Both the position numbers and the translations under genes were made by a program. A stretch of DNA of 64,000 nucleotides, taken from NCBI RefSeq assembly GCF_000812465.1, contig NZ_JWMA01000199.1, positions 62,001 through 126,000 on the forward strand, in the 5' to 3' direction. How positions within the stretch are numbered: position 1 is the first letter of the stretch; each line of letters opens with the position of its first letter. This document shows, piece by piece, positions 48,571 to 64,000 of this stretch. The notes under the pieces were generated by a model. The model worked only from the letters and a program-made list of their open reading frames with translations, was not told where the DNA came from and did not search any database. This DNA comes from Cupriavidus sp. IDO (lineage in GTDB: Bacteria; Pseudomonadota; Gammaproteobacteria; Burkholderiales; Burkholderiaceae).

Positions 48571-48801
48571 ATGCACGCACACAGCATCCACGTCATCCCA
48601 ACCGGGAAGCACGGCTGGGTCGTCGAGGTTGAAGGGGAAGACGAAGGGAGCGCGGAATACCTGACGCAGGATCAGGCTGTCGCCGCGGGCACAGAAAAAG
48701 CGAAGGAGGATGGCGTGGAACTGTTCGTCCACGGCCGGGACGGAAAAATTCGCGCATGCAAAACCGATAGCAAGGATCCACCCAAGATTGAGGCCAGCTA
48801 G
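48571..48801 (+). CDS. DUF2188 family small protein
   Basis: 76 aa. Single DUF2188 domain: IHVIPTGKHGWVVEVEGEDEGSAEYLTQDQAVAAGTEKAKEDGVELFVHGRDGKIR. These small cytosolic proteins have no known function. Preceded by GGCAGGAG. A second DUF2188 gene occurs at 61868 at the other end of the metal island; both lie near GDCCVxC-type sequences. Confidence 0.85.
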   Translation: MHAHSIHVIPTGKHGWVVEVEGEDEGSAEYLTQDQAVAAGTEKAKEDGVELFVHGRDGKIRACKTDSKDPPKIEAS

Positions 48802-49209: not shown

Positions 49210-49437
49210 CTAGCTGTCGACACAAGGCCTGCATGCATCCGCGCGCTGTTGCATTGGCGGGCACTTGCGGCTCCCATACGAACAGAACACGCAGCAATCC
49301 CCTTGCTTTGGCCGAAGCACCGCTTCGCAGCCTTTGCACTGATAGAACCACTGGCAGGCGCTGGTCGGCATGGTCTCTTCCGCGGCGTGACCACACAGCG
49401 GGCAAGTGATGGTGGACTGCAATTGGATACCGCTCAT
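49210..49437 (-). CDS. GDCCVxC-domain small cysteine-rich protein
   Basis: 75 aa. Two CxxC pairs (ITCPLCG, YQCKGCEAV) precede the hallmark GDCCVFCSYGS, then CPP and a late CxxC. This is the GDCCVxC domain family, whose members elsewhere may carry selenocysteine in place of a cysteine; here all are Cys codons. Ten or more Cys in 75 residues point to metal binding or redox work in the cytosol. Cotranscribed with the DUF190 gene 25 bp upstream. A broken relative lies at 62115-62231 under a mercury-type promoter. Confidence 0.8.
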   Translation of the reverse strand: MSGIQLQSTITCPLCGHAAEETMPTSACQWFYQCKGCEAVLRPKQGDCCVFCSYGSRKCPPMQQRADACRPCVDS

Positions 49438-49462
49438 GGCGCAAAGGAGCACGATAGGGGGT

Positions 49463-49786
49463 TCAAGGCTGGGCCTTGCCAACTGAGCCAAACTCTACGG
49501 GTGTCTTGGTGTAGAAGAGATGGATGTCCTCGCGGTTGAGGCGCTCGAAGAGAGCTTCGAGCTCTTCCGCGGTAGCGACCAGCGTAACTTCCTCCGGCCG
49601 GTCGGCAAGTTCGACGAAATGCCAGGAATGGAGGCGGTGGCTATGCCCGATCCCCTCCGCGGCGATCGTATGCGTGGCGCCGCGGACACGCATCTCCTGC
49701 AGCAACTGCATCAGCCAGTGCGAGAGTTGCTTGCCGTGATAGCGACGTCCCTCCTGTGTAAAGAACGTCACCTGGTAGCCTTGCAT
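49463..49786 (-). CDS. DUF190 (PII-like fold) protein
   Basis: 107 aa. DUF190 pattern: YQVTFFTQEGRRYHGKQLSHWLMQLLQEMRVRGATHTIAAEGIGHSHRLHSWHFVELADRPEEVTLVAT. The fold resembles PII regulators and binds small ligands in some members. AGGAGA before the ATG. It lies about 100 bp after the acr3 stop on the same strand and may be read with the ars genes. Confidence 0.85.
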   Translation of the reverse strand: MQGYQVTFFTQEGRRYHGKQLSHWLMQLLQEMRVRGATHTIAAEGIGHSHRLHSWHFVELADRPEEVTLVATAEELEALFERLNREDIHLFYTKTPVEFGSVGKAQP

Positions 49787-49884
49787 TGCCGTCTCCTGCC
49801 ACCCGGTTCCAACGCGTGGCGCGCTGTTCAGGGGCTTTTTTCATGCTAGCTCAATGCCGTCGCCGGTCCAAGGCCCAGATTGCG

Positions 49885-50964
49885 TCAGGCCCTGGCGCCG
49901 GCTTCGTACCACTTCTGTGTCCGGTTGACGATGCCGACGACGAGCAGCATCACCGGAACCTCGATCAGTACGCCTACCACGGTGGCCAGCGCCGCACCGG
50001 ACTGGAAGCCGAACAGGCTGATGGCCGTGGCCACCGCGAGCTCGAAGAAGTTGCTCGCGCCAATCAGCGACGACGGGCCCGCCACGCAATGCGCAACACC
50101 CAGCTTGCGGTTCAGCAGGTAGGCAAGCCCGGAGTTCAGGAAGACCTGGATCAGGATCGGCACGGCCAGCAGCGCGATCACCAGCGGCTGCTCGATGATG
50201 GCCCGACCCTGGAAGGCAAACAGCAGCACCAGCGTCAGCAGCAGCGCAGCGATGGAATACGGGCCGAGCCTGGCCACGACGCGCTGGAAGTGCTGCACGC
50301 CTTTCTTCAACAGCATCTTTCGCGCAAGCTGCGAGATCACGACCGGCACGACAATGTACAGCGCGACGGAAGTCAGCAGCGTGTCCCACGGCACCGTGAT
50401 GGAAGACAAGCCGAGCAGCAGCGCAACCACGGGTGCAAACGCCACGACCATGATGGCGTCGTTCAGCGCGACCTGCGACAGCGTGAAATACGGGTCGCCC
50501 TTGCACAGCTGGCTCCACACGAACACCATCTCCGTGCACGGCGCGGCTGCCAGCAGGATCAGCCCCGCAATGTAGCTGTCCAGTTGCCCGGCCGGCAGCA
50601 TCGGCGCGAACAGGTGCCGCACGAACAGCCAGCCGAGCAGCGCCATCGAGAACGGCTTGACCGCCCAGTTGATGAACAGCGTCACGCCGATGCCGCGCCA
50701 GTGGGATTTCACCTGCCCCAGCGCGCTGAAGTCGATCTTCAGCAGCATGGGGATGATCATCACCCAGATCAGGAAGCCTACCGGCAGGTTTACCTGCGCG
50801 TATTCCATACCCGCGATGGCCTGGAATGCGCCCGGCAGCGCCTGGCCGAGAAAAATGCCAGCCACGATGCACAGCGCGACCCAGATGGTCAGGTAGCGCT
50901 CGAAGAAACTGATAGCGGGCCTGGTTGAAACCGGTGCGCTGGTGACAGCGTCAGGCGCGCGCAT
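49885..50964 (-). CDS. acr3: Arsenite efflux transporter Acr3
   Basis: 359 aa, ten membrane segments. Acr3 signatures: FFERYLTIWVALCIVAGIFLGQ, TLFINWAVKPFSMALLGWLF, AAPCTEMVFVWSQLCKGDPYFTLSQVALND (the conserved Cys in TM4) and GPSSLIGASNFFELAVATAISLFG. It expels arsenite (and perhaps antimonite) using the proton gradient. The start overlaps the arsC end by 14 bp. Last gene of arsR-arsI-arsC-acr3. Confidence 0.95.
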   Translation of the reverse strand: MRAPDAVTSAPVSTRPAISFFERYLTIWVALCIVAGIFLGQALPGAFQAIAGMEYAQVNLPVGFLIWVMIIPMLLKIDFSALGQVKSHWRGIGVTLFINWAVKPFSMALLGWLFVRHLFAPMLPAGQLDSYIAGLILLAAAPCTEMVFVWSQLCKGDPYFTLSQVALNDAIMVVAFAPVVALLLGLSSITVPWDTLLTSVALYIVVPVVISQLARKMLLKKGVQHFQRVVARLGPYSIAALLLTLVLLFAFQGRAIIEQPLVIALLAVPILIQVFLNSGLAYLLNRKLGVAHCVAGPSSLIGASNFFELAVATAISLFGFQSGAALATVVGVLIEVPVMLLVVGIVNRTQKWYEAGARA

Positions 50965-51472
50965 TCGAGGCCTCGACCGGGGTATCGCCAATCTTCTTCA
51001 GTTCCTGGTGAATGGCTGTCTTGTCCAGCACGCTCAGCGGAAGGCTGGCGAACGCGTTCACGCGCTGCATGATCTGGCGGAAGATGCGCTCGAAGGCGGC
51101 ACGCTTCTCTGCATCCGTGCCCTCGACCGCCGCCGGGTCTTCGAAACCCCAGTGCGCGGACGCCGGGTGTCCCGGCCAGATCGGGCAGGCTTCACCGGCG
51201 GCCTGGTCGCAAACCGTGATGATGAAGTCCATCTGCGGTGCGCCGTCCTCCGCAAATTCATCCCAGCTCTTGCTGCGCAGGTTCGAGAGGTCGTAGCCGG
51301 TCTTCGTCACTTGCTCGATGGCGAACGGATTCACCGTGCCAGAGGGCTGGCTGCCTGCGCTGAAGGTCCTGAACCGGCCCTTGCCCATGGTGGCCAGCAG
51401 GGCTTCGGCCATGATGCTGCGCGACGTGTTGCCCGTGCAGAGGAAGAGGACGTTGTAGGTGTCTTTGCTCAT
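50951..51472 (-). CDS. arsC: Arsenate reductase, LMW-PTPase type
   Basis: 173 aa. P-loop FLCTGNTSRS with the catalytic Cys at about residue 12 (C-X5-R). SAGSQPSG and ITVCDQAAGEACPIWPGHP contain further redox Cys, as in thioredoxin- or glutathione-coupled ArsC, and the Asp-Pro general acid is in WGFEDPAAVEG. It reduces As(V) to As(III) for export by Acr3. It overlaps arsI upstream by 4 bp. Confidence 0.93.
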   Translation of the reverse strand: MSKDTYNVLFLCTGNTSRSIMAEALLATMGKGRFRTFSAGSQPSGTVNPFAIEQVTKTGYDLSNLRSKSWDEFAEDGAPQMDFIITVCDQAAGEACPIWPGHPASAHWGFEDPAAVEGTDAEKRAAFERIFRQIMQRVNAFASLPLSVLDKTAIHQELKKIGDTPVEASNARA

Positions 51473-51921
51473 TTGCCGCGGTTCAGGAAGGTAATGGTGG
51501 TTGGCGTGGGGGCGCAGCATGCCGAGGCGCTTGGTTCATCGCGTGATTCGCCGTAGGTGGGCGCGGCATCCAGCGTGTGGTACGACTCCCAGGCAATGCC
51601 TTGCGGATCGACGGTCCAGTACTTGTCGGACTTCGCGTAGCAGCAGTTCGTGCCGATCTGCGCTTCCACCGGCAGCTCGGCGCTGGCCAGGCGCGCCTGC
51701 ATCTCGCCGAGCTCCTCCTCCGACTCCACCTGCACGCCGAGATGGTCCAGCCCGGGCTTGCTGCCGCGCATGGAGAGCGCGAAATTCACGCGCGGGTCTT
51801 CCAGCATCCACTTGGCATAGTCCGGCTTGGTCACGGTGGGCTCGCTGGCGAACAGGGCCGAGTAGAAGCGGATGCTGTCGGCAAGGTTGTCGACCGAAAC
51901 ATGTACGTGCAGGCGTTTCAT
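51469..51921 (-). CDS. arsI: ArsI-type VOC metalloenzyme (C-As lyase family)
   Basis: 150 aa. VOC fold with His ligand in RLHVHVSV and LDHLGVQV, and the vicinal cysteines of NCCYAKSDKYWTVDP, which bind trivalent organoarsenicals in ArsI. A Glu ligand lies in GIAWESYHTL. ArsI cleaves the C-As bond of methylarsenite; the related CadI binds cadmium. The C-terminal tail has another CC pair (SACCAPTP). The start overlaps the arsR stop. Placed between arsR and arsC. Confidence 0.85.
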   Translation of the reverse strand: MKRLHVHVSVDNLADSIRFYSALFASEPTVTKPDYAKWMLEDPRVNFALSMRGSKPGLDHLGVQVESEEELGEMQARLASAELPVEAQIGTNCCYAKSDKYWTVDPQGIAWESYHTLDAAPTYGESRDEPSASACCAPTPTTITFLNRGK

Positions 51922-52256
51922 GGTTGATCTCCACAAGATTCACAGCCCGTGGCCAGCGCCGGCAGGCATGGCTCCCCCTGGCAGCAGTTCTCGGTCAGGT
52001 ACTGGATCAAGTCGTTCATCGTTGCGTAGTTGGCGGTGTAGATGACATACCGGCCATCCTGCCGGGACATCACCAGGCTGGCATGCGCCAGTTCCTTCAG
52101 GTGAAAGGAGAGCGAAGAGGCCGGAAGGCCGAGGGCCTCGGCGATCCGGCCGGCAGGCATACCGTCAGGGCCGGCTCGGACCAGCAGGCGGTAGACCTCC
52201 AGGCGCGAAGCGGCAGCAAGGGCCGCGAGCGAGGCGATGGCTTGGTTCGTTTCCAT
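51918..52256 (-). CDS. arsR: ArsR-family arsenic-responsive repressor
   Basis: 112 aa winged HTH (GRIAEALGLPASSLSFHLKELAHASLVMSRQDGRYVIYTANY). Cysteines Cys91-Cys92 and Cys97 (ENCCQGEPC) lie after the DNA-binding domain, the C-terminal As(III) site also known from Acidithiobacillus ArsR, not the CxC-in-helix type of E. coli. It heads the arsenic operon and likely autoregulates through the dyad at 52258-52275. Confidence 0.92.
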   Translation of the reverse strand: METNQAIASLAALAAASRLEVYRLLVRAGPDGMPAGRIAEALGLPASSLSFHLKELAHASLVMSRQDGRYVIYTANYATMNDLIQYLTENCCQGEPCLPALATGCESCGDQP

Positions 52257-55930: not shown

Positions 55931-56114
55931 TCGCCTTCGCGCCTGACGCACGCGTATGCCGTGCCCGGGCCGCGCCCCCTTTGCCTGATATCGCCAGCCT
56001 GTCCGCTGCTTAGTTAGCCGGGCACGCCGCTGCCGTGGTTCGTCCCCCAGTGCGTGCACACCGGGACGCGCGGCGGCATGGCGCAGGCAGCCGTACCGCT
56101 TGCTTTCCGGACTC

Positions 56115-57458
56115 ATGACACACTCCAAGCTGACCCTGATCGCGTCGCTTTCGCTGATGGCGTTCGCCGTCGCGCCGGCCCGCGCCGCCACGGACACCAG
56201 GCCGCCGGCAACTGCCGCCGTTTCTGCAACTTCCTTGCCGGCCTCGGCGCCGTCTTACTCGCTGCCGCAGCTGCTGACGCTGGCCCAGACCACCAACAAG
56301 GGCGTGGAGGCGGCACAGGCCGGCGTCGATGCCGCCAGCGCGGCCATCGCCAGCGCGCGCGCCTATCCCAACCCGCAGGTCGAAGTGATGATGGGCCGCC
56401 TGCAGGGCCGCCAGCCCGGCGTGACCAGCGGCAACTCGCCCAGCTACGCCATCACCCAGAAGTTCGACTACCCGCAGCAACGCAACCTGCGCCAGGCCAT
56501 GGCGGGCCGCGGGCTGGAGGCCTCCGAGGCGCAGCGCCACGGCTTCCACGCCGAACTCGCCGCGCGCGTGAAGACCGCCTACTACGAGGTACTGCGGCGC
56601 GAGAGTGAACTTGCCGCGGCCACGGAAGACCTGGCGATGATGCGCCAGATCCATTCGCGCGCGCGCCTGCGGGTGGAGGTCGGCGAAGCGCCGCGCTATG
56701 AGCTGATCAAGGCCGAGACCGAACTGCTGGCCACGCAGAAGAGCCAGCAGACCGCCGAACTGCGCGTGAACCAGGCCAAGGCCGCCTTGCGCCAGCAGGT
56801 GGGAGGCGCGCTGCCCGCGCAGTTCGGGCTGGCCGGCACGCTCGGCCAGGCGCCCGACCTGCCGCCGCTGCCTGCGCTGCGCGACACCATGACGGGCAGC
56901 AATGCGGAACTGACCCAGCGCCGCATGGAGCTGGAACGCGCCCGCCTGGGCGTGGACTACCAGCGCTCGCTGCGCTGGCCCGAGGTGGCCCTGCGCGCCA
57001 GCACCGATCGCCAGCCGGACAACAACGTCTCGCAGATCGGCCTGGTCATGACCATTCCGCTGTGGGACCGCCGCAGCGGCCCGGTGGGCGAGGCCACCGC
57101 GCAGGCCACGCAGGCGCGCACCGCGCTGGAAGCGCGCGAGTTCGAGCTGGCGCAGGAACTGGAAACCGCCTACCGCCAGTACGAGATTACCCAGGCGCAG
57201 GTGACGGCACTGGAGTCCGGCATCGTGCGCGAGGCCGAGTCCGCGCTGGGCGTGGCCGAGTCGGCCTACCGCTTCGGCGAGCGCGGCATTCTCGATTACC
57301 TCGATGCCCAGCGCGTGCTGCGCGGCGCGCGCAGCGACCTGATCGCCGCCCAGTTCGACCTGCAGGTGGCCGCCATCCAGATCGAAAAGCTCCTGTCGAC
57401 GAACGCCAACGCGGCTGCCCTGGCTCCGCTGCCGTCCTCCACTACCGAATCCAAGTAA
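56115..57458 (+). CDS. czcC: CzcC-like outer-membrane channel (TolC family)
   Basis: 447 aa. Signal peptide (MTHSKLTLIASLSLMAFAVAPARA) then two OEP repeats: YSLPQLLTLAQTTNKGVEAAQAGVDAASAAIASARAYPNPQVEVMMGR and VDYQRSLRWPEVALRASTDRQ with GLVMTIPLWDRRSGPVGEA. Outer channel of the tripartite HME-RND exporter. Start at 56115 gives the signal peptide directly. Two bp separate it from the adaptor gene. Gene symbol is by family, not proven metal specificity. Confidence 0.88.
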   Translation: MTHSKLTLIASLSLMAFAVAPARAATDTRPPATAAVSATSLPASAPSYSLPQLLTLAQTTNKGVEAAQAGVDAASAAIASARAYPNPQVEVMMGRLQGRQPGVTSGNSPSYAITQKFDYPQQRNLRQAMAGRGLEASEAQRHGFHAELAARVKTAYYEVLRRESELAAATEDLAMMRQIHSRARLRVEVGEAPRYELIKAETELLATQKSQQTAELRVNQAKAALRQQVGGALPAQFGLAGTLGQAPDLPPLPALRDTMTGSNAELTQRRMELERARLGVDYQRSLRWPEVALRASTDRQPDNNVSQIGLVMTIPLWDRRSGPVGEATAQATQARTALEAREFELAQELETAYRQYEITQAQVTALESGIVREAESALGVAESAYRFGERGILDYLDAQRVLRGARSDLIAAQFDLQVAAIQIEKLLSTNANAAALAPLPSSTTESK

Positions 57459-57460
57459 CC

Positions 57461-58621
57461 ATGCGCCCCAATTTCCTGTTTTCGATGACGGCCGCGGCCG
57501 TCATGGTGTTTGCCCTGGCCGGCTGCTCCGACAAGCCCGCGCCTGCCGCCGAGCCGGCCAAACTTCCGCCCGGCGTGATCAAGCCCGAAGCCAACCTGCA
57601 GCAAGGCCTGAAAGTCGCGCCCGTCACCACATCCCCGTTCAGCGAGATGCTGCGCGTGGCCGGCCGCATCGATTTTGACGAGCAGCGCGTGGCCCGCATC
57701 GGCGCCAGCGTGACCGGCCGCGTCACCGATCTCTACGCCATCCTGGGCCAGGAAGTGAAGGCCGGCCAGGTGCTGGCGCGCCTGCACAGCAGCGAGCTGG
57801 GCGCCGCGCAGATGGCCTTTCTGAAGAGCGAAGCGCAGAGCGAGCTGCAGGCGCGCAATGCCGAACGCGCGCGCCAGCTTTTCGCCGCCGACGTGATCGG
57901 CCGCGGCGAGCTGCAGCGGCGCGAGAGCGAACTGGCGATCGCCTCGGCCGAGATGCGCGCCTACCGCGACCAGTTGCGCGTGCTGGGCATGTCCGCCGGC
58001 GCCATCGCCAGACTGGGGAAGAACGGCAGCATCGATTCGTACTCGCCGGTGTTCTCCAGCATCAGCGGCACGGTGGTCGAGCGCAACGTGGCGCAGGGCC
58101 AGGTGGTGCAGCCGGCCGATGCGCTCTACACGGTGGCCGACCTGTCGCGCGTGTGGGTGGTGGCCGAGGTGCCCGAGCAGCAGGCCGCGCAAGTGGCAGA
58201 AGGCCAGACCGTCGAAATTGAAGTGCCGTCGCTCGCCAATGGCGCGGGCCGGCACAACGTCACCGGCAAGCTGATCTACGTGGGCCGCACCGTCAATCCG
58301 CAATCGCGCACGGTGCTGGTCCGCACCGAGCTGGAAAACCGCGAAGGCCGCCTCAAGCCCGCCATGCTGGCGAGCATGCTGATTGCCGGCAAGCCGGTCG
58401 ACCAGCTCGTGATCCCGGCCGCGGCGGTGGTGCGCGACGGCAACGACGAGCTCGTCTACGTAGAAGTGCCTGGCAACCAGTACCGCCTGACAAGGGTCAA
58501 GCTGGGCGCCGAAAGCGACGGCATGCGCGTGGTGCAGAACGGCGTGAAGGCCGGCGACCGCATCGTCGTCGACGGCGCCTTCCACCTGGACAACGAGCGC
58601 AAGCGCCTGGAACAGGGTTAA
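57461..58621 (+). CDS. czcB: CzcB-like periplasmic adaptor (membrane fusion lipoprotein)
   Basis: 386 aa. Lipobox FALAGC (Cys about residue 21). Adaptor features: ARIGASVTGRVTDLYAILGQEVKAGQVLARLHSSELGAAQMAFL (lipoyl half), a coiled coil, then YSPVFSSISGTVVERNVAQGQVVQPADALYTVADLSRVWVVAEVPEQQ and beta-barrel/MP domains. No His-rich N-terminal metal-binding extension as in some CzcB. Next to CzcA-like permease after 6 bp. Confidence 0.88.
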   Translation: MRPNFLFSMTAAAVMVFALAGCSDKPAPAAEPAKLPPGVIKPEANLQQGLKVAPVTTSPFSEMLRVAGRIDFDEQRVARIGASVTGRVTDLYAILGQEVKAGQVLARLHSSELGAAQMAFLKSEAQSELQARNAERARQLFAADVIGRGELQRRESELAIASAEMRAYRDQLRVLGMSAGAIARLGKNGSIDSYSPVFSSISGTVVERNVAQGQVVQPADALYTVADLSRVWVVAEVPEQQAAQVAEGQTVEIEVPSLANGAGRHNVTGKLIYVGRTVNPQSRTVLVRTELENREGRLKPAMLASMLIAGKPVDQLVIPAAAVVRDGNDELVYVEVPGNQYRLTRVKLGAESDGMRVVQNGVKAGDRIVVDGAFHLDNERKRLEQG

Positions 58622-58627
58622 GCGGCC

Positions 58628-61600
58628 ATGATGAAATCCTTAGTCGAAGCCGCGATCAAGCAGCGGCTCGTGGTCTGCGTCATCGCCGTGGTGCTGTTCT
58701 TCTTCGGCCTGCGCGCAGCCACCAAATTGTCGGTGGATGCGTTCCCCGATGTGACCAACGTGCAGGTGCAGATCGCCACCGAGGCCACCGGCCGCTCGCC
58801 GGAAGAAGTGGAGCGCTTTGTCACCGTGCCGGTGGAAATGGCCATGACCGGCCTGCCGGGGCTGGAAGAGATGCGCTCGCTGAACAAGGCCGGCCTGTCG
58901 CTGATCACGCTGGTCTTCACCGACGCCACCGATGTCTACTTCGCGCGCCAGCTCGTCATGGAGCGGCTGATCGAAGTGGCCGGGCGCATGCCGGAAGGCG
59001 TGACGCCGGTGCTGGGTCCGGTCTCCACTGGCCTGGGCGAGGTCTACCAGTACACGCTGGACCGCGCCGACGACGGCGACCGCGAGCTGACGCAGGAAGA
59101 GCTGGCCGAGCGCCGCATCGCCCAGGACTGGGTGGTGCGCCCGTTGCTGCGCTCGATCCCCGGCGTGGCCGAGATCAACTCGCAGGGCGGCTACGTGCGG
59201 CAGTACCAGGCGCTGGTCAACCCGGAGCGCATGCGCCACTACCAGATCCCGATCCAGCAGGTCTACCAGGCGCTGGCCCGCAACAATGCCAACTCCGGCG
59301 GCGGCGTGCTGCCGCACTACGCCGAGCAGTACCTGATCCGTGGCGTGGGCCTGGCCAAGGGCGTGGACGACCTGGGCAGCATCGTGCTGAAGGAAATCGC
59401 CGGCACGCCGGTGTACCTGCGCGACGTGGCCACCGTCACCATCGGGCACGAGGTGCGGCAGGGCGCGCTGGTCAAGAACGGCCAGACCGAGGCGGTCGGC
59501 GGCATCGTCATGATGATGCGTGGCGGCAATGCCAAGGAGGTGGTCAGCCGGGTCAAGGCGCGCGTGGCCGAGATCAACGAGCGCGGCATGCTGCCGGGCA
59601 AGCTGCAGATCGTGCCGTACTACGACCGCAGCGAACTGGTCGATTCCGCGTTGTGGACCGTGACCAAGGTGCTGCTCGAAGGCGTGGTGCTGGTGGTGAT
59701 CGTGCTGTTCCTGTTCCTGGGGGACGCGCGCTCGTCGGTCATCGTGCTGGCTACGCTGGTGCTGACGCCGCTGCTGACCTTCATGGTGATGAATGAGGTG
59801 GGGCTGTCGGCCAACCTGATGTCATTGGGCGGGCTGGCGATTGCGATCGGCCTGATGGTGGACGGCTCGGTGGTGGTGGTCGAAAACGCGTTCGAGCGGC
59901 TCGGACACAAGGATCCTGGCTTGACCAAGACCGAGATCCTGGTCAAGGCCGTGCAGGAAGTGGCCACGCCCGTGATCGTCGGCGTGGGCATCATCATCCT
60001 GGTGTTCCTGCCGCTGATGACGCTGTCCGGCATGGAAGGCAAGATGTTCGCGCCGCTGGCGTTCACCATCTCGATCGCGCTGGCGATCTCGCTGTTCCTG
60101 TCGCTGACGCTGTCGCCGGTGCTGTCGTCGTACCTGCTCAAGGGCGGCGCCGAGCATGACACGCGCGTCATCGCCTTCATGAAGCGCCACTACCTGCGCC
60201 TGCTGCACTGGGCGCTGGGCAACAGCCGCAAGACCGTGATCAGCGCGGTGGGAGCATTCGTCGCCACGCTGGCCATCGTGCCGCTGCTGGGCACCTCGTT
60301 CATCCCGGAAATGAAGGAAGGCTCGATCGTGCCGGCCATCGACCGCGTGCCGAACATCTCGCTCGAAGAGTCGATCAAGCTGGAGAAGGAGGCCAACAAG
60401 CTGGTGCTGAGCGTGCCGGGCGTGAAATCGGTGGTCTCGGGCGTGGGCCGCGGCGAAAGCCCGGCCGACCCGCAGGGCCAGAACGAATCGACGCCCATCG
60501 CCAGCCTGAAGGACCGCGACGAGTGGCCCGACGGCTGGACCCAGGACGATATCGCCAACGCCATCCGCGAGAAGCTCAAGGCCATTCCCGGCGTGCAGAT
60601 CGTGATGGCGCAGCCGATCTCGGACCGCGTGGACGAGATGGTCAGCGGCGTGCGCTCGGACGTGGCGGTGAAGGTGTTCGGCGACGATCTCGACAAGCTG
60701 CGCGAGCTGGCCGGCGAGATCGCGCGCGTGGCCGGCGGCATCAACGGCTCGCAGGATATCCGCATCGAGCGGATTTCGGGGCAGCAATACCTGTCGATCG
60801 AGATCGACCGCCAGGCGATTGCGCGCTACGGGCTCAATGTGTCGGACATCCACGACCTGATCGAGATCGCCATCGGCGGCAAGCGCGCCACGGACATCTT
60901 CGAAGGCGAACGCCGCTTTGCCGCGGCCGTGCGCCTGCCCGAAGAATTCCGCAGCAACGTGCAGGCCGTCCGCCAGCTGCTGGTGCCGACGCCGCATGGC
61001 ATCCAGGTGCCGCTGCAGAGCGTGGCGAAGATCGAAGTCACCGACGGCCCGGCCCAGATCAGCCGCGAAATGGCCAAGCGCCGCGTGGTGGTGATGATCA
61101 ACGTGAAGGACCGTGACCTCGGCGGCTTCGTGACCGAGCTGCAGCAGGCCACCGGCGCCAAGGTGAAGCTGCCGGAAGGCTACTACCTCGAGTGGGGCGG
61201 CCAGTTCCAGAACATGGAACGCGCCATGGGTCACCTGAAGATCATTGTGCCGGTCACCATCGCCGCGATCTTCTTCCTGCTGTTCCTGTTGTTCAACTCG
61301 CTTCGCTTCGCCACGCTGATCATCACGGTCCTGCCGTTCGCCTCCATTGGCGGCATCATCGGGCTGTTCGTCACCGGCGAATACCTGTCGGTGCCGGCGT
61401 CGGTGGGCTTTATCGCGCTGTGGGGCATGGCGGTGCTCAACGGCGTGGTGCTGGTGTCATATATCCGCACGCTGCGCGATTCGGGTTTGTCGGTCGATGA
61501 GGCGGTGGTGCAGGGCGCGACCCAGCGCTTCCGCCCGGTGATGATGACCGCGACCATTGCGATGCTGGGGCTGGTGCCGTTCCTGTTCTCGACAGGGCCA

Positions 61601-61744
61601 GGCTCGGAAGTGCAGCGTCCGCTGGCGGTGGTGGTGATCGGGGGGCTGATTACCTCGACGCTGCTGACGCTGGTGATGGTGCCGACGCTCTATCGCTGGT
61701 TTGATGACCGGAAGGTGGATCCGACGAAGGACGTGCCGGTGTGA
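58628..61744 (+). CDS. czcA: CzcA-like HME-RND heavy-metal efflux permease
   Basis: 1038 aa, 12 membrane segments with two large periplasmic loops; opens MMKSLVEAAIKQRLVVCVIAVVLFFFGLRAATKLSVDAFPDVTNVQVQI, the HME-RND start. TM4 reads AIGLMVDGSVVVVENAFERL: the Asp and Glu of VDG...VEN are present, but the Asp that precedes Phe-Gly in zinc/cobalt CzcA proteins is Ala, as in the copper/silver CusA group. Hence the metal class is unsettled. Proton-driven export from periplasm to outside with czcB and czcC. A strong terminator follows. Confidence 0.93.
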   Translation: MMKSLVEAAIKQRLVVCVIAVVLFFFGLRAATKLSVDAFPDVTNVQVQIATEATGRSPEEVERFVTVPVEMAMTGLPGLEEMRSLNKAGLSLITLVFTDATDVYFARQLVMERLIEVAGRMPEGVTPVLGPVSTGLGEVYQYTLDRADDGDRELTQEELAERRIAQDWVVRPLLRSIPGVAEINSQGGYVRQYQALVNPERMRHYQIPIQQVYQALARNNANSGGGVLPHYAEQYLIRGVGLAKGVDDLGSIVLKEIAGTPVYLRDVATVTIGHEVRQGALVKNGQTEAVGGIVMMMRGGNAKEVVSRVKARVAEINERGMLPGKLQIVPYYDRSELVDSALWTVTKVLLEGVVLVVIVLFLFLGDARSSVIVLATLVLTPLLTFMVMNEVGLSANLMSLGGLAIAIGLMVDGSVVVVENAFERLGHKDPGLTKTEILVKAVQEVATPVIVGVGIIILVFLPLMTLSGMEGKMFAPLAFTISIALAISLFLSLTLSPVLSSYLLKGGAEHDTRVIAFMKRHYLRLLHWALGNSRKTVISAVGAFVATLAIVPLLGTSFIPEMKEGSIVPAIDRVPNISLEESIKLEKEANKLVLSVPGVKSVVSGVGRGESPADPQGQNESTPIASLKDRDEWPDGWTQDDIANAIREKLKAIPGVQIVMAQPISDRVDEMVSGVRSDVAVKVFGDDLDKLRELAGEIARVAGGINGSQDIRIERISGQQYLSIEIDRQAIARYGLNVSDIHDLIEIAIGGKRATDIFEGERRFAAAVRLPEEFRSNVQAVRQLLVPTPHGIQVPLQSVAKIEVTDGPAQISREMAKRRVVVMINVKDRDLGGFVTELQQATGAKVKLPEGYYLEWGGQFQNMERAMGHLKIIVPVTIAAIFFLLFLLFNSLRFATLIITVLPFASIGGIIGLFVTGEYLSVPASVGFIALWGMAVLNGVVLVSYIRTLRDSGLSVDEAVVQGATQRFRPVMMTATIAMLGLVPFLFSTGPGSEVQRPLAVVVIGGLITSTLLTLVMVPTLYRWFDDRKVDPTKDVPV

Positions 61745-61790
61745 TGGGTCTCTGCCACCGGGTGCATACTGCCCGGTGGCGCGAGCATCG

Positions 61791-61826
61791 AAGGCGCCTT
61801 GCGCGATGCGTGGGGCGCCTTTTTTG
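61791..61826 (+). terminator. Intrinsic terminator of the czc-like operon
   Basis: Stem AAGGCGCC (61791-61798) pairs with GGCGCCTT (61814-61821), followed by a T-run to 61826, 47 bp after the czcA stop. Confidence 0.85.
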
Positions 61827-61867
61827 TTTGGGGTTTGGCAGAATTTTGCGGTCGGGCTAGTACGGCG

Positions 61868-62092
61868 TCACAGCGGCGGCTTCTGCTGCTCGTCGCCGCA
61901 CGCGTTGCACCAGTGCACATCGCCGTCGTGACGCTGTATGTGCAGTTCTGCATTCTCTCGCCTGGCCACGTCCCAACCCGCGGCGATTGCCGCTTCCATG
62001 GTGGGAAATCTCTGGGTCTTCATATTGAGGCCGCCAAAATCCAGTGCCCAACCACTTTCTGCGGGCAGAACGCGAATGATCCGCGATTGCAT
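61868..62092 (-). CDS. DUF2188 family small protein, second copy
   Basis: 74 aa from the ATG at 62092. DUF2188 pattern: SRIIRVLPAESGWALDFGGLNMKTQRFPTMEAAIAAGWDVARRENAELHIQRHDGDVHW, then a Cys pair (WCNACGDE). A longer frame to 62272 is rejected because it would begin inside the promoter. It is the only apparently intact gene downstream of the mercury-type promoter at 62273-62303. Function unknown; distinct from the copy at 48571. Confidence 0.78.
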   Translation of the reverse strand: MQSRIIRVLPAESGWALDFGGLNMKTQRFPTMEAAIAAGWDVARRENAELHIQRHDGDVHWCNACGDEQQKPPL

Positions 62093-62114
62093 AATGCCCC
62101 TCTCTGGTGGCCCT

Positions 62115-62231
62115 GGGCCTTGGCACAGCGTGGCAGCGCTCAAACTCATGGCGCCACTGGCAGGCATCAACGGGCTGGTTTCTTCTTTTGCACGCGCGCA
62201 CTTTGGGCAGGTGATCCCCGGCGTTGCCCAT
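62115..62231 (-). pseudogene. Frameshifted remnant of a GDCCVxC-family gene
   Basis: On the minus strand, one frame encodes GITCPKCARAKEETS and the next frame ACQWRHEFERCHAVPRP. Together these align residue by residue with the intact GDCCVxC protein at 49210 (ITCPLCGHAAEETMPTSACQWF, then YQCKGCEAVLRP). Nucleotides agree too (for example GCCTGCCAGTGG in both). One extra G near the ATG (62231) and one missing base mid-gene shift the frame. The GDCCVxC signature itself is lost. A ribosome-like GGAAGGACGGAG precedes the ATG. Confidence 0.75.
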
Positions 62232-62272
62232 CGAAATGCACTCCGTCCTTCCCTTATGCGCGGTTTAGGCAT

Positions 62273-62303
62273 AGCCTAGGTCCGTACCCGGGTACGGAGT
62301 CAA
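62273..62303 (-). promoter_or_regulatory. MerR-type mercury-like promoter/operator (leftward)
   Basis: On the minus strand: -35 TTGACT (62303-62298), a 19-bp spacer and -10 TAGGCT (62278-62273). The spacer contains the dyad TCCGTACCC/GGGTACGGA (62281-62298). The 19-bp spacer and TCCGTAC...GTACGGA arms are those of the mer structural-gene promoter of Tn501/Tn21. MerR is encoded divergently 4 bp away. Confidence 0.82.
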
Positions 62304-62306
62304 GCC

Positions 62307-62747
62307 ATGGAGCACACACTAACAATCGGGAAGCTGGCCAAGGCGGCTGGTGTTGGCGTGGAAACGGTACGTTACTACCATCGGTGTGGCCTGCTGCCGG
62401 TGCCAGAGCGTACCTATGGCGCCATTCGCCAGTATCCGCAGCAGAGCTTGCAGCGGCTTCATTTCATTCGCCAGGCCCAGTCGCTGGGGTTCACCCTGGA
62501 TGAAGTCCGGGTACTGCTGCGACAGCACGATGGCGGCACGTGCAGCACAGCCCGCGCACTGGCCGAGCAAAAGCTCGGCCTTGTGGAGGAAAAACTGAAG
62601 GAATTGCGGCGATTGCGAACGGAGCTGAAGCATCTCATCGGGCAATGCCATGCCAACGCCAATGAGGCTACTTGCCCCTTGATTGACACTTTGTCTGCCA
62701 GCATGAGATCAGAGAACAGGCGTGACGCTCCATTTCGGCAGCGGTGA
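62307..62747 (+). CDS. merR: MerR-family metalloregulator with complete Hg(II)-type cysteine triad
   Basis: 146 aa. MerR HTH TIGKLAKAAGVGVETVRYYHRCGLL, dimerisation helix, and Cys79, Cys114, Cys123. The spacing (35 and 9) equals that of the Hg(II) ligands Cys82, Cys117, Cys126 of Tn501 MerR; ACHA/CHANANEATCPLI resembles its metal loop. It would twist the 19-bp-spaced promoter to activate leftward transcription. No merT, merP or merA is in the window. GGAG precedes the ATG inside the operator. Confidence 0.88.
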   Translation: MEHTLTIGKLAKAAGVGVETVRYYHRCGLLPVPERTYGAIRQYPQQSLQRLHFIRQAQSLGFTLDEVRVLLRQHDGGTCSTARALAEQKLGLVEEKLKELRRLRTELKHLIGQCHANANEATCPLIDTLSASMRSENRRDAPFRQR

Positions 62748-62830
62748 ACGAGGTCCGTGCCGGCACGCACTGAACGGCAAGCGATGTAGCCGGAAGGGGT
62801 GCAGTATCTCGCCGGTAGAAAATGATGACA

Positions 62831-64000
62831 CTAGGTTCTTCCAACCAGAAGCCATGTATGCAGGTCGCCGATGCCCTTCGCTGCAATCAAACCGCGCTCT
62901 TCGAGCAGGAATGGTTCCCCAAGTTGCTGTCGCGTGGCATCAGTTACCTGAACGCGACCGACTATGCCTTGCGATTCCATGCGGCTGGCGATATTGACGG
63001 TATCGCCCCACAAGTCATAGATGAACTTTCTCCTCCCGATCACGCCGGCGACGACAGCTCCACTGTGGATGCCCACTCGCAATTGCAGGTTGTAGCCGCT
63101 TCGCTGATTGAACTGGCCCAGTGACTCAAGCATGTCCAAGGCCATATGTGCGGCCCGAGCGGCGTGATCGGCCGCCGGGACAGGCAGACCCGCGGCTGCC
63201 ATGTAAGCGTCGCCGATGGTCTTGATTTTTTCGAGTCCCCGGCTGTCGGCGATATTGTCAAAATCGGCGAATATCTCGTTCAGGACTGCCACCAGTCGTT
63301 CGGGGCTCATGCTGGGAGAGAAGCGGGTGAACTGCACAAGGTCAGCAAACAACACTGACACTTCCCGGAACTTGTCGGCGATGACGTCCGGAGGGCCTGC
63401 GGCGATGAGATCGGTGCGCAGCTTCAATCGCTCGGCTATGGGGGAGGGCAGCACGTTGAGGAGCAGTCGCTCGGTCACCTGTTGCTCGCAAACGAGCTTC
63501 TCGTAAAGACGCCTGAGTTCATGACTCTGGTGAACGATCGTCTCGCGGCTCGCTTCCAGTTCACGCACCTTCCGCTCGAGTTCCTTGCCGTATTTCAACG
63601 ATTCCCCGTGCAGCAGACGCACTTCCAGCATATTGCGAACCCGCATCAGCACCTCCGCCAGGTCAAATGGCTTGCTGACGAAGTCTTTCGCACCGGCTTG
63701 CAGTGCGCGCAATTTGTGATCGGGCTGGGCAGTGATGACGATCACCGGAAGATAGTTGTCCGGCTGGACTTCCTTGAGGCGTTCCATGACCTCGAACCCG
63801 TCCATGCCGGGCATCTGCAGATCAAGCAGGATCAGGTCATGGTGGTTCCTGCCGTGAAGCTCGCAAACCGTGCGCGGATCGGTGGTTGATTCAATGCAAA
63901 CATAGCCGGCGCCGCGCAGCATCTGCTCGAGCAGCAGGACATTGGCCTCCAGGTCGTCAACGACCAGGATTCTCGCCGCCAGAATGTCCGATGCGTTGAT
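62831..64000 (-). CDS. Response regulator with class III adenylate/guanylate cyclase domain (5' end outside window)
   Basis: 389 codons visible; the start is beyond base 64000. A REC domain (ILVVDDLEANVLLL, phospho-acceptor Asp in ILLDLQMPGMDGFEVM, Lys in DFVSKPFDLAEV) is joined by a coiled coil (KYGKELERKVRELEASRETIVHQSHELRRLYEKLV) to a class III cyclase domain (VSVLFADLVQFTRFS, KTIGDAYMAAAGLP, LRVGIHSGAVVAGVIGRRKFIYDLWGDTVNIASRME). Metal-binding Asp and base-recognition residues are in place. It probably makes cAMP on phosphorylation. Its histidine kinase would lie to the right. Confidence 0.92.
   Translation of the reverse strand: MNASDILAARILVVDDLEANVLLLEQMLRGAGYVCIESTTDPRTVCELHGRNHHDLILLDLQMPGMDGFEVMERLKEVQPDNYLPVIVITAQPDHKLRALQAGAKDFVSKPFDLAEVLMRVRNMLEVRLLHGESLKYGKELERKVRELEASRETIVHQSHELRRLYEKLVCEQQVTERLLLNVLPSPIAERLKLRTDLIAAGPPDVIADKFREVSVLFADLVQFTRFSPSMSPERLVAVLNEIFADFDNIADSRGLEKIKTIGDAYMAAAGLPVPAADHAARAAHMALDMLESLGQFNQRSGYNLQLRVGIHSGAVVAGVIGRRKFIYDLWGDTVNIASRMESQGIVGRVQVTDATRQQLGEPFLLEERGLIAAKGIGDLHTWLLVGRT

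Follow-up and report, generated by a model that had tools for sequence, protein, structure and literature searches.

A mercury-type MerR switch in Cupriavidus that seems to have outlived its mercury genes and adjoins a DUF2188 gene

In the genome of Cupriavidus sp. IDO, a soil bacterium, a MerR-type regulator with the three cysteines associated with Hg(II) binding and a mer-type operator-promoter adjoin a gene encoding a DUF2188 protein instead of mercury resistance genes. Our analysis of a 64,000-nucleotide stretch of this genome (the window), together with comparison of related genomes, supports the proposal, to which we assign a probability of roughly 0.7, that the locus is a working MerR-type Hg(II) switch with a replaced regulon. 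The switch seems to have outlived its mercury genes, with the DUF2188 protein a candidate metal-stress factor. An intact mercury-type switch without a mer operon had been proposed from the window's letters alone (the sequence-only reading), and the anatomy of merR, the promoter and the absence of mer genes all bear this out.

Anatomy of the switch and its neighborhood

The window MerR (Table 1) has cysteines at positions 27, 79, 114 and 123, the last three being spaced by 35 and 9 residues, in agreement with the Tn501-type spacing claimed by the sequence-only reading; the Hg(II) ligands of Tn501 MerR are given as Cys82, Cys117 and Cys126 in a passage of PMC9909328. Cys79, Cys114 and Cys123 are invariant in all 17 aligned members of its clade. 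The top NCBIfam model for the window MerR is that of the mercury MerR equivalog, TIGR02051, at 144.9 bits, which is below the curated cut-off of 150.85 bits and does not by itself confer membership; all 10 orthologues tested, including two adjacent to merT, likewise score under it (131.4-150.0 bits). The closest solved structure is 5crl (mercuric resistance operon regulatory protein; E 8.5e-35), and the window MerR shares 47-48% identity with each of three MerRs from mer operons in an alignment. The genome also has another MerR-like gene, in two pieces, one with an internal stop (G000:C185:70783-71027; L006, L007).

The proteobacterial MerR signal, as set out in a passage of PMC1526738, is a 7-4-7 dyad, TCCGTAC-(4)-GTACGGA, within a promoter with a 19-bp spacer. 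The same arrangement is present in the window, where the predicted TTGACT-N19-TAGGCT promoter with its TCCGTAC/GTACGGA dyad lies at 62273-62303. The dyad pattern matches once in the window and in none of 100 shuffles, and the promoter pattern, with at most one mismatch, matches once in the whole genome (reversed control, 0). Across 60 genomes of the genus there are 38 promoter matches (control, 0), every one of which adjoins a merR match when the two match lists are compared by eye. The mer operons of the same genus have the same promoter layout.

Table 1. Positions of features in the window
Feature	Position	Strand	Remarks
merR-type regulator, 146 aa, Cys79/Cys114/Cys123	62307..62747	+	open frame; Pfam MerR domains
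-35 element TTGACT of leftward promoter	62298..62303	-	
Operator dyad TCCGTAC-CCGG-GTACGGA, TCCGTACCCGGGTACGGA	62281..62298		7-4-7; matches proteobacterial MerR consensus
-10 element TAGGCT	62273..62278	-	19-bp spacer to -35
GDCCVxC remnant	62108..62215	-	start region and 3' half with GDCCVxC motif deleted; one-base gap
Probable RBS of DUF2188, GAGAGGGG	62097..62104	-	spared by deletion (alignment); function inferred
DUF2188 gene, 74 aa	61868..62092	-	intact; first complete gene behind promoter; PF09954 E 1.4e-12
Terminator-like hairpin and T-run, between RND efflux gene and DUF2188	61790..61822	+	1 found; shuffles mean 1.1, weak alone
Intact GDCCVxC paralogue in separate cluster	49210..49491 (ORF); match 49246-49416	-	G000:C146:111246-111416; 105.3 bits

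The reported absence of merT, merP and merA downstream was upheld, both locally, where tblastn found no match to any of the three at 56001-64000 and hence no mer operon, and, for MerT and MerA, across the genome. The genome-wide search, which covered these two proteins, gave no match for MerT, and none of the 20 matches for MerA exceeded the cut-off. As the assembly is in 206 contigs, at a listed completeness of 99.99%, it is possible that a plasmid is missing from it.

Downstream of the promoter lie, as the sequence-only reading stated, a GDCCVxC remnant and a DUF2188 gene, the former partial and the latter intact. The GDCCVxC model NF041374 gives 21.3 bits (E 2.3e-4) on the open reading frame at 61857-62231, over residues 9-41 only; this is under the 40-bit cut-off for a full domain, and the motif itself is missing. 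Of the two deletions in the remnant, one covers the start region and the other runs from mid-gene to within ~15 bases of the start codon of DUF2188. A literature search on 'GDCCVxC' found no paper.

The intact GDCCVxC paralogue in the same window, ~13 kb from the switch, raises the question of whether the main target of the regulator lies elsewhere, that paralogue (49246-49416) being an example. It is without this operator-promoter, the genome's single promoter match being at the switch; weaker sites would be missed by a pattern allowing at most one mismatch, and we regard such regulation in trans as very improbable. The paralogue is the terminal gene of a minus-strand cluster (49210-52256) that also encodes an HTH regulator, a glyoxalase-like protein, a low molecular weight phosphatase-like protein, an SBF-family transporter and a DUF190 protein, and that looks like an arsenic operon.

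The switch in related genomes and the probable order of gains and losses

The MerR clade of the window comprises 20 loci in 18 of the 60 genomes of the genus, at 63-100% identity; the remaining 23 MerR matches in these genomes are 42-50% identical, and 22 of them adjoin a MerT match, as judged by position. In named genomes, among the best 80 of 482 matches, those of at least 68% identity are all from Cupriavidus (12 loci), the next being at most 51% identical. Gene order beside merR, read by tblastn (E 1e-4) at the 20 loci, forms a graded series: merT-merP-GDCCVxC (one locus, L084), merT-GDCCVxC (one, L085), GDCCVxC without DUF2188 (two, L086 and L088), GDCCVxC-DUF2188 (eight, L071-L076, L079 and L083), DUF2188 alone (seven, the window, L077, L078, L080, L081, L082 and L087) and no neighbor gene (one, L089, where merR is broken by a stop). 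Two plasmid records carry the switch, one from C. campinensis with DUF2188 only and one from Paraburkholderia (PGU19, 56% identity) with merR beside merT-merP-GDCCVxC (the homologue L252). Mercury genes are present, then, at two of the 20 loci and in Paraburkholderia, and on this comparison of homologous loci the sequence-only reading is not refuted. There is no sign of merA in the ancestral unit among the merT-bearing loci compared. Among the matches listed in a literature search, nothing names this merR-DUF2188 unit.

In the MerR tree, the 16 DUF2188-bearing rows stand apart from the rest (94/99), and the changes required on it number one for DUF2188, four for GDCCVxC and three for merT. The DUF2188 proteins linked to the switch, 15 in all, group together on a single branch (83/82), itself within a larger subfamily (100/99) with 15 unlinked copies. 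Since the tree requires a single change and the linked proteins form a single branch, DUF2188 was probably captured once, behind GDCCVxC and before the loss of GDCCVxC in this genome. No intact GDCCVxC gene stands beside the switch of this genome, of a five-species group (95/91) or of C. campinensis; it has probably been lost several times. Because a single loss is compatible with the tree test (p 0.09), the independence of the loss in this genome rests on the remnant, which is the only one detectable by tblastn among the DUF2188-only loci.

That merT(-merP) precedes GDCCVxC at two of the 20 loci and in Paraburkholderia makes it probable that the lineage once had mercury genes. The loss of merT and merP is ancient and extends beyond this genome; the idea of a mer operon lost within this genome itself was rejected, close relatives having the same switch without mer genes. 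The sequence-only reading had posed a choice, in which the switch either outlived a lost mer operon or was recruited to control DUF2188. Each half holds in part, and the two are better read as successive steps than as an either/or.

The DUF2188 gene: selection, structure and possible earlier control

The DUF2188 protein of the window scores 48 bits on PF09954, above the gathering score of 22, and the family is present in 58 of the 60 genomes of the genus. Pairwise dN/dS, computed over the first 60 codons at 14 loci, a small sample in which pairs are non-independent, has a median of 0.16 over 91 pairs and of 0.15 over 15 pairs from the six other DUF2188-only loci; it is 0.28 over 21 pairs at loci that also have GDCCVxC. 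The values for this genome versus the 13 others are 0.11-0.26, and the three pairs above 0.5 are all GDCCVxC-DUF2188 pairs. The gene is evidently under purifying selection.

These values bear on a possibility that we consider unlikely, namely that the switch is left over from an operon that has decayed and owes its survival to chance or to merR autoregulation, with DUF2188 a bystander. GDCCVxC is dead in this genome, autoregulation alone could keep the dyad, and damage to the switch is seen in relatives: the L025 merR is frameshifted, the L089 merR has its stop, and at L079 (G050:C2) an insertion of ~1.1 kb, which by our own reading of the DNA contains a transposase-like frame, splits the -10 element. 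To judge by these three loci, the switch is sometimes dispensable. Against a mere leftover, DUF2188 lies behind the promoter at 15 of the 20 loci, it shows purifying selection at loci that have it as sole neighbor, and the -10 element (TAGNCT) with its 19-bp spacing is conserved at 17 of 18 loci in the comparison.

Comparison of DUF2188 with the PDB by sequence gave no match, and Foldseek on a predicted model (mean pLDDT 79.2) gave no significant fold match (best E 0.11). A histidine-rich stretch, HIHRH, is intact in 11 of the 15 linked copies and reads HIQRH in the window copy. Its candidacy as a mercury site is weakened, as many unlinked copies also have the stretch and the window copy is one histidine short, and it provides no evidence for a mercury role. 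A second DUF2188 gene in the window (48571-48801, plus strand; PF09954, 64.1 bits) is without the histidine-rich stretch.

The unlinked members of the subfamily have a distinct conserved leader of ~110 bases, which contains hairpins and closes, immediately upstream of the start codon, with one that is terminator-like and has a T-run (seen at L174-L178, L192, L213-L216 and L219-L222); in 4 of its 30 predicted base pairs both partners vary, and it is possibly an attenuator or a small RNA. An Rfam search with four unlinked leaders gave no match. A model of the leader matches 16 of the 60 genomes at E 0.01, with no match in this genome (E 0.01, stricter filters), and behind some weaker matches there seems to be nothing left of a gene but its first codons. 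Most linked copies have a similar stem from which, by eye, the T-run has gone, and in this genome the stem is deleted. A linked and an unlinked copy occur together in four genomes (G010, G020, G033 and G043), with a second match in G026, at the threshold used. Because the unlinked relatives use another conserved leader, it was probably a pre-existing DUF2188 gene that was captured by the switch; the data fit an exchange of one mode of control for another, in a direction that we infer. To the fuller proposal, that the regulon turned over completely and that DUF2188 encodes a mercury-induced stress protein captured from hairpin-leader control, we give slightly less than even odds.

The inducing metal and relationship to known systems

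Among the 68 homologous loci (L103-L170) that remain of the best 80 of 482 matches when Cupriavidus is set aside, merT is nearby for 24 of the 29 regulators with Cys79, versus none of the 39 with arginine, lysine or histidine at that position; ~14 of the 24 merT-linked loci are near-identical, mostly from Idiomarinaceae, and the independent cases are fewer. Four of the Cys79-less regulators (L123, L137, L152 and L164) have a CCGTAC-N4-GTACGG dyad. L118, L123, L137 and L152, which are 41-50% identical to the window MerR, differ from it in having arginine or histidine for Cys79 and a P-type ATPase neighbor, and all four of these ATPases pass the cut-off of the copper ATPase model TIGR01511; the dyad is found in the last three of these loci and was not found at L118. 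L118-L170 provide a natural set of MerR proteins with arginine, lysine or histidine for Cys79, several of them beside P-type ATPase genes with the same dyad, and these homologues are material for the study of metal specificity.

As the same dyad adjoins copper-type ATPase genes and regulators without Cys79, the operator sequence by itself is not diagnostic of Hg(II). Nor does the cysteine spacing prove it, the lead sensor PbrR691 having the same 35/9 arrangement, and the argument that either feature proves Hg(II) was rejected. We have therefore considered whether the switch drives DUF2188 in response to Cd(II), Pb(II), another thiophilic ion, or several ions. The shared spacing, the shared dyad and the scores under the TIGR02051 cut-off would all be compatible with such a signal. 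We nevertheless think it quite unlikely, given that all 11 clade members tested score 131-150 bits on TIGR02051 versus 81-100 bits on the Zn, Cu and Cd/Pb models, that merT occurs at two loci of the clade and beside the Paraburkholderia homologue, and that Cys79 tracks with merT across the 68 loci. With this cysteine set and these merT-bearing relatives, Hg(II) is most likely the signal that turns on DUF2188.

A working Hg(II) switch at this locus would operate as follows. A MerR dimer on TCCGTAC-N4-GTACGGA, inside the over-long 19-bp promoter, would repress; Hg(II) would be coordinated by Cys79 from one subunit together with Cys114 and Cys123 from its partner, and Hg(II)-MerR would then distort the DNA such that RNA polymerase starts leftward transcription. 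The ancestral leftward transcript would have comprised merT, merP and the GDCCVxC gene. Of these, merT and merP would have been lost in the Cupriavidus line, where a pre-existing DUF2188 gene would have been captured downstream, and in this genome deletion of GDCCVxC would have left DUF2188 as the sole intact gene next to the switch, where it may have a protective role.

Like the merR-PT region of Tn501/Tn21-type operons, the window locus has a divergent layout, a 7-4-7 dyad, a 19-bp spacer and the three Hg(II) cysteines; unlike those operons, it is without merT, merP and merA and has DUF2188 as neighbor instead. Its design appears to be that of a working mer switch; it is not a mer operon. 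More closely comparable are units in which merR stands beside merT(-merP)-GDCCVxC and which are merA-less within the flanks examined (C. basilensis L084/L085, Paraburkholderia L252, Azohydromonas L169, Moraxellaceae L135 and Pseudomonas L136). Their regulators are related and their GDCCVxC gene is that of the window remnant, but they keep the transport genes absent from the window, and no DUF2188 match was found at those loci. CadR/PbrR, ZntR and CueR use the same promoter-distortion principle, with the regulator beside a metal-response gene, whereas the clade scores, given above, favor the mercury model over theirs.

The overall results provide a stepwise series, in living species, in which the sensor and operator of a switch appear to persist as its target genes are exchanged. 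They give DUF2188 a testable function, that is in metal stress. They also serve as a warning that mercury resistance genes should not be assumed wherever a genome has an intact mer-type switch.
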